Below, one piece after another: positions 1,936 through 24,689 of a DNA stretch of 33,611 nucleotides (positions within the stretch are counted from its first letter, which is position 1; each line of letters begins with the position of its first letter). Source of the stretch: a virus. The translations under genes and the position numbers were made by a program. The DNA lies in IMG/VR virus record IMGVR_UViG_3300009124_000053, positions 1 through 33,611 of that record; one strand, written 5' to 3'. The notes beneath the pieces were generated by a model. That model was not told the origin of the DNA. It ran no database searches and worked only from the letters and a program-made list of their open reading frames with translations.

Positions 1936-4167
1936 ATGGCAAGTCAAGTCTCGCCTGGAATTTTAATCAAGGAGCGTGACCTTACTAATGCTGTCGTGAC
2001 AGGTGCGTTGGCTATTCGAGCTGCACACGCATCATCTTTTGCTAAGGGACCAATCGGTGAAATTGTTAACATCAATACTCAAAAAGAACTAATCGATACA
2101 TTCGGTGAGCCAACAGAAGATTATGCAGAGGACTGGATGGTTGCATCTGAGTTCCTGAACTACGGCGGTAGACTCGCTGTTGTTCGTGCTGAAAGCACTG
2201 GAGCACTCAACGCAACTACTGGTGGCACTGGAGTTCTGATCAAGAACGAAGAAGATTGGATGGCAGGAACTGGCACCGATCAAGTCTTTGCTGCAAGATC
2301 TGCAGGAACCCATGGCAACAGACTCGTAGGAGTTTTGGTTGATCGTGGTCCTGATCAGAAAATTACTTTTGACAAAGCACCTGATGCAACTCCAGTTCTC
2401 GGATCAATTTTAACTTTCGCAAGTGGAAAAACTGCTAAAGTTGTTGGTTGGGATGCTGGCACACTAACAGCAGACATTGAAAATCTATCTGGTGGTGCTA
2501 TTACTACTTCGGATGAAATTACCGAAACCGAAGATCCTATTGCATCTTTCACCCACAATGCGGTCACCGAATTAGGTAGAACTCCTGGCACTTACACTCC
2601 TGCTGCTGATGCTGGCGGTGCTGAGTTCCAAGTTGTAGTTGCTCAAGGCGCAGAAATTCTTGATGTAACAGATCCACAAAATCCAGTATCATTTGTTCCC
2701 CCACAATATGAAGGAGATGCTGTTACAGTATCTCTCCTAGCTGCTGGCGATGGTTATTCTGTAGGAAGCATAATCAACCTTGCTGGTGCTGCTACTGGCG
2801 GTGGTTCTGATATTACTGTCATTGTATCAGGTATTGTTGATGATGAAACTGGAGTCACTACTGTTAAAGACTGGTATTTAAATACTACAGTCGAAGGCGT
2901 TGCACTTTCTGCAATCGGACCTCGCCCAGAATCAACTCAGTTTGCTCTGGACAATGGATTCTCTAACGATGCAGTTCACTTTGCTGTAATTGATAGAGTT
3001 GATGGAGTATTAGTAGAAAGATTTACATATCTTTCAAAACTGTCTGATGCTCGCGACGAAGAAGGTGGCAACATCTACTACAAGTCAGTAATCAACGAAC
3101 AGTCTGCATATCTATTCCAAGGCGCAGCACCTGCTGCTAATGCAAACCTTTCTGGAACAGTTGCTCTTGGCAGTGCTTCAACTGGAACTGCTGGAGAACT
3201 GGTTAAGTTCGGTGCATTCAACGATAGACTCGAAAATGGTGCTGATGGTGCAGGTTATACTGCTGGTCAGTGGAGCAGTGCAATGGATCTCTTCCTTGAT
3301 ACTGAAGAGACTGATATCGATTTCGTTCTCATGGGTGGATCCATGTCAAGCGAGACCGACACCAAGGCAAAGGCAACCAAGGCAATCGCAATTGCTGCAA
3401 GCAGAAAGGATGCAATCGCATTCGTTTCTCCACACAAAGGAAATCAGGTCGCTTCCACTGGTGGTGCTCTAACTTCCACACAACAGAAAGAGAACACCCT
3501 GAACTTCTTCTCAGATCTAACCTCTACTTCCTACGCTGTATTCGACAGTGGTTATAAGTATGTTTATGATCGCTTTAACGATAAGTATCGTTACATTCCT
3601 TGCAATGGAGACGTTGCTGGTCTTTGCGTTCAGACTTCTAACCTACAGGAAGACTGGTATTCACCTGCTGGTCTCAACCGTGGTGGTATTCTTAACGCAG
3701 TTAAGATGGCATACAATCCTAATAAGGCAGACAGAGACGAACTGTATCAAAACAGAATCAACCCTGTTGTTGGTTTGAGAGGACAAGGCATCACATTGTT
3801 CGGTGACAAGACTGCACTATCTGCACCTTCTGCATTCGATCGTATCAACGTTCGTCGTCTCTTCCTCAACCTTGAGAAGAGAGCACGCAGACTTGCTGAA
3901 GGAGTCCTGTTCGAGCAGAACGATGCTACCACAAGAGCTGGTTTTGCTAGCGCACTCAACTCTTACCTTACCGAGGTTCAGGCACGTAGAGGTGTTACCG
4001 ATTACCTCGTTATCTGTGACGAGTCAAACAACACCCCTGACGTTATTGATCGCAACGAGTTTGTTGCTGAAGTTTATGTAAAACCAACCCGCTCGATCAA
4101 CTACATCACAGTCACATTCACCGCAACCAAGACTGGAGTTTCTTTCAGTGAAGTTGTAGGTCGCTGA
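1936..4167 (+). CDS. 18: Contractile tail sheath protein gp18
   Basis: Forms the contractile sheath round the tail tube. The 743-residue product is somewhat longer than T4 gp18. The N-terminus (S-P-G-I-L-I-K-E-R-D, then G-P-I-G-E, then F-L-N-Y-G-G-R-L-A-V-V-R) and the C-terminus (V-Y-V-K-P-T-R-S-I-N-Y-I, then T-F-T-A-T-K-T-G) are the conserved ends of myovirus sheath proteins. The middle third is Gly/Ala/Thr-rich and probably carries the variable surface domains. The ATG follows AAGGAG by six bases. It lies between the terminase and tail tube genes, the standard T4-like order. It is probably expressed late from the octamer at 1891. Confidence 0.96.
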   Translation: MASQVSPGILIKERDLTNAVVTGALAIRAAHASSFAKGPIGEIVNINTQKELIDTFGEPTEDYAEDWMVASEFLNYGGRLAVVRAESTGALNATTGGTGVLIKNEEDWMAGTGTDQVFAARSAGTHGNRLVGVLVDRGPDQKITFDKAPDATPVLGSILTFASGKTAKVVGWDAGTLTADIENLSGGAITTSDEITETEDPIASFTHNAVTELGRTPGTYTPAADAGGAEFQVVVAQGAEILDVTDPQNPVSFVPPQYEGDAVTVSLLAAGDGYSVGSIINLAGAATGGGSDITVIVSGIVDDETGVTTVKDWYLNTTVEGVALSAIGPRPESTQFALDNGFSNDAVHFAVIDRVDGVLVERFTYLSKLSDARDEEGGNIYYKSVINEQSAYLFQGAAPAANANLSGTVALGSASTGTAGELVKFGAFNDRLENGADGAGYTAGQWSSAMDLFLDTEETDIDFVLMGGSMSSETDTKAKATKAIAIAASRKDAIAFVSPHKGNQVASTGGALTSTQQKENTLNFFSDLTSTSYAVFDSGYKYVYDRFNDKYRYIPCNGDVAGLCVQTSNLQEDWYSPAGLNRGGILNAVKMAYNPNKADRDELYQNRINPVVGLRGQGITLFGDKTALSAPSAFDRINVRRLFLNLEKRARRLAEGVLFEQNDATTRAGFASALNSYLTEVQARRGVTDYLVICDESNNTPDVIDRNEFVAEVYVKPTRSINYITVTFTATKTGVSFSEVVGR

Positions 4168-14028: not shown

Positions 14029-14523
14029 ATGGCAAGAACCAAAAACAAAGAGTATTACGTTAACAACAAAGAGTTTCTTGCTGCCATCACTGAGTATCGC
14101 AGCAAAGTTCAACGTGCAAAGGAGTTGGGCAAACCACGACCAAGAGTTACCAACTACCTGGGAGAATGCTTCTTGAAGATTGCTACGCACTTGTCATACA
14201 AACCAAACTTTGTCAACTACATGTTCCGTGAGGACATGATCTGTGATGGGATTGAAAATTGTCTGCAATACATTGACAACTTTGATCCCGAGAAATCTTC
14301 TAATCCTTTTGCTTACTTCACTCAGATTATCTACTACGCTTTTCTTCGTCGCATTCAGAAAGAGAAGAAGCAGTTAGAGATCAAGAGTAAGATTATTGAA
14401 AAGTCTGGTTACCAGGAAGTAATGTATACCGAAAAGTTTGAAGGTGACATGGCAGGAATGAATATGTCATACTCAGATATGGGTAGCATCAAAGAAAACA
14501 TTGAAACAAGAATGAACCGATGA
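14029..14523 (+). CDS. 55: Late transcription sigma factor gp55
   Basis: Small sigma factor that directs host RNA polymerase to the TATAAATA-type late promoters, working with the gp45 sliding clamp. With ATG 14029 it has 164 residues (T4 gp55: 185). The region 2-like core is visible as L-Q-Y-I-D-N-F-D-P-E-K, then N-P-F-A-Y-F-T-Q-I-I-Y-Y-A-F-L-R-R-I, followed by a basic stretch Q-K-E-K-K-Q. The frame is open to TTG 14011, but the promoter -10 box at 14002-14007 rules that start out. There is no good ribosome site in the short leader. The stop overlaps the next gene by ATGA. Confidence 0.95.
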   Translation: MARTKNKEYYVNNKEFLAAITEYRSKVQRAKELGKPRPRVTNYLGECFLKIATHLSYKPNFVNYMFREDMICDGIENCLQYIDNFDPEKSSNPFAYFTQIIYYAFLRRIQKEKKQLEIKSKIIEKSGYQEVMYTEKFEGDMAGMNMSYSDMGSIKENIETRMNR

Positions 14524-14747
14524 AACTACTAACAGTTGAAGATTATGAAAAGGCAGGAGAACACTTCTGGCCAAAATATCAATATGTTTCAGAACAGATG
14601 GGCAGCAACGCAAAAGTTGAAGACATCTTAAAAGTTATGGAAGCAATTGGTGGAGTTGCACTAAAATTAGCACTTGAAGAAAAACCTGCCCCCTTTGGAT
14701 TTAATAAAAATGGAAACGACGGAACAGAAAAAATCGAAACTGAGTGA
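14520..14747 (+). CDS. Unknown 75-residue protein downstream of gp55
   Basis: Begins M-K-L-L-T-V-E-D-Y-E-K-A-G-E-H-F-W-P-K-Y and is mostly helical, with V-E-D-I-L-K-V-M-E-A-I-G-G-V-A-L-K-L in the middle and a polar tail. Translation is coupled to gp55 by ATGA. Co-transcription with gp55 and the gp47/46 nuclease makes it an early/middle gene. Function not recognised. Confidence 0.8.
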   Translation: MKLLTVEDYEKAGEHFWPKYQYVSEQMGSNAKVEDILKVMEAIGGVALKLALEEKPAPFGFNKNGNDGTEKIETE

Positions 14748-15003
14748 CTCATTTGGTGGCACAGTAGAGAAAAATATTCCTGAAGATGTTGAGTGGATTG
14801 ACGATGCTTTCTACATTATGAAAACACGTTTCGGTCTTTTTACATCTGTCTTAAAAGAACCATTGGGTCAACACTTTATTACAGGTGGAACTGAAGATGG
14901 AGTTCTTCAAGTAACACGATGGCATTTGAAATGTCTTCAAGATGGTAGTCTTGACGAACATACTAGAGTTGTAAACAGTGGAGTTGTTGGAGGTAAACTT
15001 TGA
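14710..15003 (+). CDS. Unknown 97-residue protein upstream of gp47
   Basis: Starts best at ATG 14710 (M-E-T-T-E-Q-K-K-S-K-L); a TTG at 14674 is open in frame but would enlarge the overlap with the previous gene from 38 to 74 bases. The central part is beta-rich: D-D-A-F-Y-I-M-K-T-R-F-G-L-F, then G-Q-H-F-I-T-G-G-T-E-D-G-V-L, then T-R-W-H-L-K-C-L-Q. The end carries a strong GGAGG ribosome site that serves gp47. Function not recognised. Confidence 0.78.
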   Translation: METTEQKKSKLSDSFGGTVEKNIPEDVEWIDDAFYIMKTRFGLFTSVLKEPLGQHFITGGTEDGVLQVTRWHLKCLQDGSLDEHTRVVNSGVVGGKL

Positions 15004-22360: not shown

Positions 22361-23022
22361 GCAAAGTATTTCTTTCCAACCAAACGCTTCAAGTTCTGAA
22401 GAACTATTCAACCATCAACAGTTCTATTCTCATCCGTGAAGGCAATGAACTGAAGACCATCAGCGTCGGGGAGAATGCCATTGCACAGTATACATGTGAA
22501 GAATCGTTCCCCCAAACGTTTGGTATCTACGATCTGAACCAGTTCCTTGCTGGTCTGTCATTGTTTGAGAGTCCAACTCTTGAGTTTGACAATCCCAGTT
22601 ATGTAAACATTCGTGGTCGTGGACGTTCTGCAAAGTATTACTTCTCCGATCCTGAGATTACTCTCAAGTCTGCACCAAACAAAGACGTTAAGTTTCCTGG
22701 TGCTGATATTCAATTCAGTCTGACTCAAGAAGACTTGAGTGGCATTCAGAAAGCAGCAGCAGTTTACAACCTGCCTGATCTTGTCTTCTGTTCTAACGGT
22801 GGTGAGATCTCTCTTGATCTTCGTGACAGTGAGAACGACACCAGTAATGCATACTCTCAGACTGTGGTAGGAGACACCACTGGCGATTACGAATTGACAA
22901 TCAAGGTTGAAAACATTCGCCTTCACCCTGGTGACTATTCAGTTAAGGTGTCCAAGCATCTGATTTCTGAATGGAAGCATCAGAACCTTGATCTTACTTA
23001 TTATATTGCACTCGAACCTTGA
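22357..23022 (+). CDS. 45: Sliding clamp gp45
   Basis: Trimeric ring that tethers gp43 polymerase to DNA and, with gp55, activates late transcription. The 221 residues match T4 gp45 in length (228). Clamps lack sharp motifs; the call rests on the N-terminal L-S-N-Q-T-L-Q-V-L-K-N-Y-S-T-I-N-S-S-I pattern, the repeated two-domain beta structure, acidic composition and position directly before gp44. It overlaps the previous gene by ATGA and gp44 by one base (TGATG). Confidence 0.93.
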   Translation: MSKVFLSNQTLQVLKNYSTINSSILIREGNELKTISVGENAIAQYTCEESFPQTFGIYDLNQFLAGLSLFESPTLEFDNPSYVNIRGRGRSAKYYFSDPEITLKSAPNKDVKFPGADIQFSLTQEDLSGIQKAAAVYNLPDLVFCSNGGEISLDLRDSENDTSNAYSQTVVGDTTGDYELTIKVENIRLHPGDYSVKVSKHLISEWKHQNLDLTYYIALEP

Positions 23023-23963
23023 TGAAAAAATTCCTTTGGGTAGAACAGTATCGTCCTCAAAAGATCGACGATTGTATTCTGCCTGCTAATATCAAAAAAG
23101 CATTCAAAGGTTTTGTTGAAAAAGGAGAGATCCCCAATCTTCTCCTTACTGGCACTGCTGGTGTCGGTAAGACCACCATCGCCAAAGCAGTCTGTGATGA
23201 GATCGGTGCGTCCTATATTGTGATCAATGGTTCCGACGAGGGACGCTTCTTGGACACCGTTCGCAACCGTGTCCGTCAGTTTGCCACAACAGTCTCACTG
23301 ACCTCTGGAGCACCCCACAAGGTCGTTATCATCGATGAGGCAGACAACACCACCCCTGACGTGCAACTGTCCCTCAGAACCGCCGTAGAAGAGTTCCACA
23401 ACAACTGCCGATTCATCTTCACCTGCAACTTCCAGAACAAGATCATTGAACCGCTGCACTCCCGTTGCACGGTCGTTGACTTCCGAATCCAGAAGGAGCA
23501 ACAGCAGCAACTCCAAGGACAGTTCTTCCTTCGTCTGAAGACTATCTTGGATGACAACAAAGTTGAGTATCAGGACAAGGTGATTGTCAAACTGATCCAA
23601 CGTTACTATCCCGACTGGCGTCGTCTTATCAATGAAGCACAACGTCATGCCGCAACTGGTAAGATTGATACCGATATTCTTTGCGATATTGCTGATGTCA
23701 ATCTGTCTCAGTTGATGAACTCCCTGAAGAACAAAGAGTTCTCCACAGTTCGCAAGTGGGTTGTAGACAACATTGATAATGATCCAAACATTATCATGCG
23801 TAAGATCTACGATGCTCTCTATGAGAACATCAAACCCAAATACATTCCAGAAGTAGTCCTGATCCTTGCTAAGTATCAGTATCAGATTGCTTTTGTTGCC
23901 GACCAGGAGATCAACCTGTTGGCATGTCTTACTGAAGTTATGATGAGTTGTGAATTCAAATGA
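23022..23963 (+). CDS. 44: Clamp loader ATPase subunit gp44
   Basis: AAA+ ATPase that with gp62 opens gp45 and loads it on primed DNA. Starting at ATG 23022 it has 313 residues (T4 gp44: 319); a TTG one codon earlier is in frame but less likely. It shows V-E-Q-Y-R-P at 7-12, Walker A G-T-A-G-V-G-K-T at 44-51, Walker B I-I-D-E-A-D at 103-108, and the clamp-loader S-R-C motif at 147-149. The end (C-E-F-K) overlaps the next ATG and is part of the 13-base repeat at 23953. Confidence 0.96.
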   Translation: MKKFLWVEQYRPQKIDDCILPANIKKAFKGFVEKGEIPNLLLTGTAGVGKTTIAKAVCDEIGASYIVINGSDEGRFLDTVRNRVRQFATTVSLTSGAPHKVVIIDEADNTTPDVQLSLRTAVEEFHNNCRFIFTCNFQNKIIEPLHSRCTVVDFRIQKEQQQQLQGQFFLRLKTILDDNKVEYQDKVIVKLIQRYYPDWRRLINEAQRHAATGKIDTDILCDIADVNLSQLMNSLKNKEFSTVRKWVVDNIDNDPNIIMRKIYDALYENIKPKYIPEVVLILAKYQYQIAFVADQEINLLACLTEVMMSCEFK

Positions 23964-23965
23964 AA
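23953..23965 (+). repeat. Direct repeat, left copy, at the gp44 end
   Basis: AATTCAAATGAAA, identical to 24283-24295 and exactly 330 bases before it. It contains the gp44 stop and the start of the HNH gene. Similarity goes on loosely as GT-TCCCT in both copies. Confidence 0.85.
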
Positions 23966-24283
23966 AAGTGTCCCTCTTGTGATAGAGTTCTTCCATTAGA
24001 TTCGTTTGGTAAAAATAGATCTAAAAGAGATAAGTTGGGTGTAAATTGCAAAGAATGTGAGAGAAACAATTCCAAATTACTTAAAGAACTAAGAAAAAAA
24101 CATCCAAATCCCCAAAAATGCCAGTGTTGTGGGAGAACTGATAGAAGAATGATTTTAGATCACGATCATAAAACAAAAAAGTTTAGAGGATGGTTGTGTG
24201 GTCACTGCAATACTGCCATAGGATTTATGGATGATGATGTATCGCAATTGAAAAAAGCAATTTTGTATTTGGAAGGAGTGTAA
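23960..24283 (+). CDS. Endonuclease VII-like HNH protein inserted after gp44
   Basis: A 107-residue nuclease candidate. The N-terminus is a zinc ribbon, C-P-S-C at 4-7 and C-K-E-C at about 30-33, followed by C-Q-C-C at about 54-57. The catalytic region I-L-D-H-D-H-K-T-K-K-F-R-G-W-L-C-G-H-C-N (about 70-89) is the D-H-D-H...C-x-x-C-N signature of the recombination endonuclease VII family, a beta-beta-alpha metal (HNH-type) nuclease. T4 endonuclease VII (gp49) is 157 residues, so this is a shorter relative. Base composition is more A/T-rich than the flanking genes. It is bounded by 13-base direct repeats and splits gp44 from gp62, pointing to a mobile, free-standing homing-type endonuclease rather than the Holliday resolvase. 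Confidence 0.88.
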   Translation: MKKCPSCDRVLPLDSFGKNRSKRDKLGVNCKECERNNSKLLKELRKKHPNPQKCQCCGRTDRRMILDHDHKTKKFRGWLCGHCNTAIGFMDDDVSQLKKAILYLEGV

Positions 24284-24295
24284 ATTCAAATGAAA
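24283..24295 (+). repeat. Direct repeat, right copy, after the HNH gene
   Basis: AATTCAAATGAAA, the second copy of the 23953 repeat. It begins at the HNH stop codon and contains the start codon of the next gene at 24290. Confidence 0.85.
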
Positions 24296-24484
24296 GTCCC
24301 TACACATGAAGAACTGATTCACCTGAAGATTCAGGCAGCAATGCGTGAGAACGTATTTGATGAAGATCAAATGAAGTATCTTGGTGAACGTGCTGGACAC
24401 CACTGGTATCTGGTTGCTGGTGAGCACGAAGTAAAAGCAGAACAAATTGAAGACTTCGAGATGGTTGATGATGGAGAGAGTTAA
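24290..24484 (+). CDS. Unknown 64-residue acidic protein
   Basis: Begins M-K-V-P-T-H-E-E-L-I-H-L-K-I-Q-A-A-M-R-E and ends in E-D-F-E-M-V-D-D-G-E-S; helical and acidic with a central R-A-G-H-H-W-Y-L-V segment. An AAGGAG site lies 12 bases upstream. Joined without the HNH insert, its ATG would overlap the gp44 stop as ATGA, suggesting it was the original neighbour of gp44. Function not recognised. Confidence 0.75.
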   Translation: MKVPTHEELIHLKIQAAMRENVFDEDQMKYLGERAGHHWYLVAGEHEVKAEQIEDFEMVDDGES

Positions 24485-24689
24485 AACCACACCAGAGAAC
24501 GTAGCAGAAGCACACGAAGCTTTGTTTCATGCTACAATGAATCTACCTGCTGCTGCTGCCCACTGTGGTATGACGCAGAAACAATTGAAGTTAACCTTCT
24601 GGGAATACCTTAAATATCATGCCGCAAACTTTGAAATCACTGAAGACACCACTTCGCTATCCAGGGGGGAAGAGTCGTGCCCTGAGTAA
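24471..24689 (+). CDS. Unknown small protein with a helix-turn-helix-like stretch
   Basis: 72 residues from ATG 24471 (24468 is also possible), overlapping the previous gene by 14 bases and the Dam gene by 71. The centre, L-P-A-A-A-A-H-C-G-M-T-Q-K-Q-L-K-L-T-F, has the spacing of a helix-turn-helix, followed by W-E-Y-L-K-Y-H. The last 15 or so residues come from sequence that also codes for the start of Dam. It may be a small DNA-binding protein; the call is tentative. Confidence 0.65.
   Translation: MERVKTTPENVAEAHEALFHATMNLPAAAAHCGMTQKQLKLTFWEYLKYHAANFEITEDTTSLSRGEESCPE

Follow-up and report, generated by a model that had tools for sequence, protein, structure and literature searches.

A nuclease gene followed by a copied gp44 3′ tail in a marine T4-like phage, and its interpretation as a probable homing-type cassette

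Several described systems resemble parts of the arrangement reported here. Phage T4 possesses free-standing homing endonucleases of the seg and mob groups, which are associated with intronless homing (PMC2988022), and cyanophage S-PM2 encodes F-CphI, a characterized homing endonuclease of the DHHRN/EndoVII type (PMC6083498). Free-standing homing, insertion at the 3′ end of a gene and overlap of stop and start codons are all established (PMC2988022, PMC3037559). In fungal mitochondria, mORFs of LAGLIDADG and GIY-YIG types with C-terminal duplications are found at Allomyces atp6 and at Glomus atp6, atp9, cox2 and nad3 (PMC3630166). The locus described below concerns the question of how unrelated nucleases can occupy one and the same codon while an essential gene remains unharmed, and how they pass between phages whose neighboring genes differ. 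Related viruses hold many unrelated nuclease genes at the same place behind gp44, with the same copied ending, and the site looks like an exchangeable "plug" for selfish nucleases. No description of a gp44-tail system was found in the searchable literature, subscription papers being outside the search.

The stretch of DNA analyzed (hereafter, the window) comprises positions 1 to 33,611 of the IMG/VR virus record IMGVR_UViG_3300009124_000053. The following features surround the insert:

23022..23963, + strand: gp44, sliding-clamp-loader large subunit, 313 aa, ending in …LTEVMMSCEFK and a stop (phrog_168, E=3.9e-132; PDB T4 gp44, E~6e-44)
23945..23963, + strand: left copy of the gp44 tail, GAGTTGTGAATTCAAATGA, coding, native to the phage lineage (identical in S-H9-2, which lacks the insert)
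23953..23965, + strand: left 13-mer, exact match
23960..24283, + strand: EndoVII/DHHRN-type nuclease gene, 107 aa, start inside the gp44 ATGA overlap (Pfam Endonuclease_7, E=7e-15; phrog_2633, E=6e-25)
24158..24211, + strand: putative active-site stretch D67-H68-x-H70-x5-R76-x7-N84, invariant in the nuclease alignment
24275..24293, + strand: right copy of the gp44 tail, GGAGTGTAAATTCAAATGA, foreign ECEFK type (1 mismatch to the consensus; equivalent position in loci L011–L013)
24283..24295, + strand: right 13-mer, exact match
24290..24484, + strand: displaced neighbor, 64-aa phrog_2020 protein (E=5e-33)
24295..24495, + strand: patch adjoining the insert, 15% divergent from S-H9-2 (30–31 mismatches per ~200 bp versus a median of 2)

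The initial annotation had proposed an insertion at a start/stop junction, bounded by 13-base direct repeats that each contain a start codon. The 13-mer AATTCAAATGAAA is indeed exact at both 23953–23965 and 24283–24295, spaced by 330 nt, and both starts are in place (nuclease ATG at 23960, next-gene ATG at 24290), but the repeat is longer than was thought. Both 13-mers are part of a direct repeat of 15–19 nt which constitutes the 3′ tail of gp44 (codons …ECEFK and stop, with an overlapping ATG). In the window it spans 17 nt with one mismatch (TGTGAATTCAAATGAAA on the left, TGTAAATTCAAATGAAA on the right), and the tail occurs at these two places only. The gene gp44 terminates with TTC AAA TGA at 23963, and the nuclease gene closes with a TAA at 24281–24283. 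The left copy has three mismatches against the tail consensus GGAGTGTGAATTCAAATGA, which holds a 6-bp palindrome, GAATTC; the right copy gives the nuclease its stop codon and the next gene its start context. A single G>A difference from the left copy turns the nuclease stop TGA into TAA. Since the repeat is exact in the sister loci L011–L013 (15–19 nt, with TGA intact at the equivalent position), the right copy of the window has lost its identity through this one change.

The nuclease gene is optional. Phage S-H9-2, which is ~98% identical to the window over colinear parts and encodes a gp44 protein with 100% amino acid identity, and phage S-RIM32, ~90% identical at the locus, both read TGTGAATTCAAATGAACGTTCC: a single copy of the tail, with gp44 and the next gene overlapping by ATGA. 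The same direct join, with the sequence TTCCGATGA, is present in Syn1 and S-RIM44, and the phrog_2020 neighbor is joined to gp44 by ATGA in 36 insert-free loci. Cutting the 330 nt out of the window recreates just this uninterrupted junction between gp44 and the gene at 24290, as had been predicted; the cassette sits in the gp44 stop/start overlap, and the existence of near-identical phages without the gene removes the concern that it might be fixed at this locus. The reading frame of gp44 stays intact: the nuclease starts at the gp44 ATGA, and the right tail restores the same junction for the following gene.

One copy in empty sites and two in occupied ones is also what a transposition-like target-site duplication, arising from a long-stagger cut at insertion, would leave. 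However, the right copy is of the GGAG/ECEFK type even where gp44 itself ends in MMSCEFK (the window and L012) or MMRCEFK (L229, L249 and others), suggesting that the tail travels with the insert; in the window and L012 it is not the native tail but is identical to that of another lineage. A duplication of the target is contradicted by this foreign origin. Repeat length varies as well, from 15 to 29 nt, and there are no terminal inverted repeats and no transposase. The criteria for a transposon or IS element are unmet, the insert ends carrying no inverted repeats and the nuclease being the sole ORF inside; the attC criterion of integrons is also unmet, with no inverted-repeat pair at the cassette ends and only the 6-bp palindrome within the tail. 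We consider target-site duplication hardly tenable, and infer from the sequences that the repeat is gp44's own 3′ tail, the right copy of which is carried by the cassette, and not a generic target-site duplication.

Profile searches against PDB matched the window nuclease to Hpy99I (2e-17) and T4 EndoVII (4e-6). Residues D67, H68, H70, R76 and N84 are invariant in the nuclease alignment, their spacing is the same as that of D101/H102/R110/N118 in F-CphI, and two CX2C zinc pairs are located upstream of the active-site stretch (C54/C57) and within it (C80/C83), so that the protein meets the DHHRN criterion of a DHxH…R…N motif with two CX2-4C zinc pairs. The C-terminal dimerization and junction-binding region of the T4 resolvase is absent from this 107-aa protein, the PDB match to EndoVII covering residues 6–73 of 157 only. 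A Foldseek search with an AlphaFold model (pLDDT 82, pTM 0.62) gave no meaningful match, and the family assignment therefore rests on sequence profiles, by which the enzyme is predicted to be an EndoVII-motif nuclease. Against the previous label of HNH endonuclease, the active-site pattern is of the EndoVII type (DHHRN, like F-CphI) and not that of a classical HNH enzyme.

Other parts of the window also differ from S-H9-2 or contain related genes. At 1623–1850 lies a 75-aa EndoVII-like remnant (phrog_4723, E=2e-35) which keeps the zinc ribbon and lacks the DHDH motif; in the alignment with S-H9-2 it begins at about the end of gp17, and it matches the decayed endonuclease described at the gp17 3′ end (PMC3037559). 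The tail sheath gene (1936–4167) encodes 743 aa versus 637 aa in S-H9-2; a stretch at ~2201–2858 is either replaced or additional. At 14520–14929, small ORFs between two conserved genes are strongly unlike the otherwise ~98% identical S-H9-2 and represent a replaced module.

Three further IMG/VR contigs (L011, L012 and L013) encode the window nuclease (94–98% amino acid identity) from the same gp44 stop, while their gp44s are only 59–79% identical to that of the window. The sequence TGTGAATTCAAATGA is found at both ends of these inserts and is followed by unrelated or very divergent genes; the window included, one cassette occupies a single codon position behind four gp44s, and the genes that follow it differ. 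Compared pairwise among the four phages, the nuclease is 94.4–96.6% identical at the nucleotide level versus 61.0–71.7% for gp44, and dN/dS between the four nuclease alleles is 0.04–0.20. Persistence of one nuclease at one stop codon while gp44 has diverged fits a mobile free-standing nuclease. We infer that the gene is under purifying selection with an intact active site (DNA cleavage itself being an inference) and that it has reached this one site in diverged genomes by horizontal transfer. In L012, the final 63 nt of gp44 coincide perfectly with the window lineage, upstream of which the divergence jumps to ~32%. As no relative outside that lineage (S-H9-2, L031) shares more than 26 nt of the stretch, it can be read as a clear co-conversion tract. 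No clear left-side co-conversion is seen in the window itself. On the right, the divergent patch at 24295..24495 is possibly a recombination tract; it provides only weak evidence of co-conversion because similar patches relative to S-H9-2 occur elsewhere in the window.

Scans of IMG/VR looked first for the tail alone and next for pairs of tails at defined distances, over four spacing ranges. At least 53 contigs show the order gp44-tail, ORF, tail, and their inserts form at least 15 blastp clusters: EndoVII/DHHRN, HNH_3/NUMOD-like HNH, three more HNH groups, PDDEXK_5-like, three groups recognized as PD-(D/E)XK-like by eye only, GIY-YIG-like (a weak match to a homing-endonuclease PHROG, E=9e-4) and unknowns. 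Many unrelated nuclease families are thus found at the same gp44 site with the same tail, with the reservations that several nuclease assignments are based on motif inspection alone, that most loci are metagenomic contigs and that some are near-duplicates of each other. All inserts start in the gp44 ATGA. Some read into the tail in its gp44 frame (…ECEFK), the others in a frame shifted by one (…GGV); that both frames find a stop codon in the tail implies that ORFs were fused to it independently and more than once.

In a set of 199 gp44 loci, the 268 kb downstream of gp44 contains 18 further occurrences of the 19-nt tail, with up to 3 mismatches allowed, and 896 kb of control sequence taken from these contigs contains none. 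The loci retrieved have 27,632 ATGA sites in all; where two of these close identical 15-nt stretches 150–1500 bp apart, the repeat is the gp44 tail in 34 cases and another sequence in one; many of these loci had, however, been retrieved by tail patterns. Comparison of the first ORF behind gp44 used loci not selected for a second tail. The end of this ORF is bimodal in its distance to the tail (at most 4/19 mismatches in 18 loci, at least 5 in the rest, with the mode at 8–9), and a tail follows recognized nucleases in 13 of 15 loci and other ORFs in 5 of 160 (Fisher p about 2e-13, computed with 6/160 for other ORFs). The two-copy scans ruled out that the repeat is specific to the window nuclease, and the tail arrangement is general.

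These data also bear on whether the repeat could be a conserved ribosome-binding and start region (GGAG…ATG) that each inserted gene needs for its neighbor and that arose by selection instead of copying. The core does run from GGAG to ATGA in most right copies. Such convergence accounts neither for identity over 19 nt nor for the zero count at other start sites in the 896 kb. Variants within right copies are, moreover, mostly gp44-synonymous (16/25 versus 11% expected, p=4e-10), even in untranslated copies, suggesting gp44 alleles as the source of these copies, or as their partners in exchange. Since changes in the right copy follow gp44 codon synonymy, this explanation is largely refuted and appears very improbable to us.

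The homing-nuclease footprint suggested in the initial annotation is supported, with corrections: mobility is supported by one nuclease found at one stop codon behind diverged gp44s, but the footprint is not specific to this nuclease, as unrelated nucleases and a few other ORFs show it too, and both DNA cleavage and homing are inferences. At the gp44 site, two HNH genes (L138 and L174) lack the tail, and some tail-flanked inserts are not recognizable as nucleases (cluster 0, L106/L237, L252, L222, a 42-aa ORF and a 293-aa phrog_5931 protein); both facts count against a homing cassette. Cluster 0 is an unknown family of 121–149 aa (MKKTKYYYEHK...INPKTGRRDGGV) with the same gp44 site and tail in at least 13 loci (L229, L230, L232, L238, L239, L241, L244, L245, L250, L253–L255 and L259). 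It has no Pfam or PHROG match, and a distant relative occurs at the gp44 site of P-TIM68 without a tail.

Beyond these cases, the oxygenase-like and related ORFs that fill the gp44 gap in S-CAM3-type phages have no tail copy. No start/stop repeat was found at EndoVII-like genes away from gp44, among those long enough to test. HNH genes at other junctions (S-SSM4, S-8S29, S-RS29 and Sf-CH1b) are not accompanied by a copy of the upstream gene's stop-proximal tail; three of them lie in the gp44–gp62 region (L269, S-SSM4, 2495–3076; L271, S-8S29, 2474–3088; L273, S-RS29, 2459–3064), and the S-SSM4 junction shows only an 11-nt A-rich block.

Different inserts and downstream genes occur in varying combinations: one downstream gene is found after five insert families and directly after gp44 in 39 loci, and one insert can precede different genes. 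At least seven loci are tandem arrays with three or more tails. Locus L266 has four tails, in the order gp44, the 293-aa phrog_5931 protein, a GIY-YIG-like gene, the 42-aa ORF and the next gene; the 42-aa ORF, which is hydrophobic, reads through the tail in the third frame. In L240 the EndoVII gene is followed by a PD-(D/E)XK-like insert, and in L013 by an HNH_3-type ORF. Two isolates show the arrangement as well and argue that it is not an assembly artefact. Synechococcus phage S-B64 (L270, 1847–3181) reads gp44-tail-HNH-tail-HNH, with an exact tail between the two nucleases, both of which are unannotated; S-H35 shares its HNH match. Phage S-8S53 carries an EndoVII-type gene ending in MECEFK, with a tail two mismatches from the consensus; the start/stop block test misses it, its two tails being degenerate. 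A tblastn search with the PD-(D/E)XK insert found no isolate.

Arrays, shuffled combinations and non-nuclease inserts are what would be expected if the tail were a mere short homology joint through which ordinary phage recombination swaps any tailed gene, with no cutting of gp44 needed, and the gp44-synonymous variants of the right copies agree with such passive exchange, as if these were derived from gp44 alleles or exchanging with them. Neutral exchange does not, however, predict that nucleases of unrelated folds dominate among the inserts, and it leaves unexplained how each family first gained its tail. We regard passive exchange as unlikely, without dismissing it.

We prefer, with a probability of roughly 0.7, to read the 330-bp insert as a free-standing nuclease cassette of the homing type, made up of an EndoVII/DHHRN ORF and a copy of the gp44 tail (its last 15–19, and up to about 29, nt); both the cutting and the part played by the tail in recombination are inferred. 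The nuclease would cut gp44-tail DNA of co-infecting phages that lack the cassette, and recombination repair would copy the cassette into the cut genome, its left end recombining through gp44 and its right end through the carried tail. The latter would serve at once as a right-hand homology arm, a stop codon and a ribosome-start context; with the tail as right arm, a conserved gp44 end would be enough for the cassette to enter a phage, irrespective of the next gene. The left copy keeps the gp44 tail whole, so how a tail-cutting enzyme would spare its own genome is unexplained, and the actual cut may be made at another place in gp44. A carried tail would answer both parts of the question posed above, restoring stop, start and coupling and providing a universal homology arm. 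It also offers a simple mark in the sequence by which such cassettes can be found, and the arrangement points to gp44 as a battleground of co-infecting phages. More tentatively, and with slightly less than even confidence, we speculate that marine T4-like phages share a cassette system that docks at the gp44 3′ end, in which nuclease genes and some others carry the 3′ tail, stack in tandem, swap independently of their flanks and leave gp44 and the next-gene start intact; this would amount to an integron-like array that does without an integrase and is driven by nuclease cuts and by recombination over short homologies.

Compared with known systems, the window nuclease resembles F-CphI in being a free-standing cyanophage gene with the same active-site residues and spacing and with CX2C zinc pairs. 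F-CphI, in contrast, adjoins psbA and works with an intron, and no gene-tail copy is described in the portion of the source available (PMC6083498); here the target would be gp44. The T4 seg and mob genes are likewise optional nuclease genes between conserved genes, adjoining replication genes and showing co-conversion, and the start of mobE overlaps the upstream stop (UAAUGA). Within the accessible text on these genes (PMC2988022), however, no flanking copy of a neighbor's 3′ end was found, nor any tandem arrangement of unrelated nuclease cassettes at a single codon, and cut sites are placed hundreds to thousands of bp from the insertion. The HEG-bounded exchange regions of Barth et al. (PMC10448857) are similar in that nuclease genes mark recombination boundaries near essential genes, and differ in having no short portable gene-tail joint, the main text containing no mention of a direct repeat, gp44 or a clamp loader. 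Fungal mORFs likewise place an endonuclease ORF after a host gene and repeat the C-terminal codons of that gene on the far side of the ORF, but there the incoming copy replaces the end of the gene and the native end is displaced (PMC3630166). The polarity of the gp44 cassette is the opposite: the left gp44 end of the window is native, being equal to that of S-H9-2, the right copy is foreign, the native end is not displaced, and the duplication, unlike that of the fungal mORFs, comprises only 5–9 codons.
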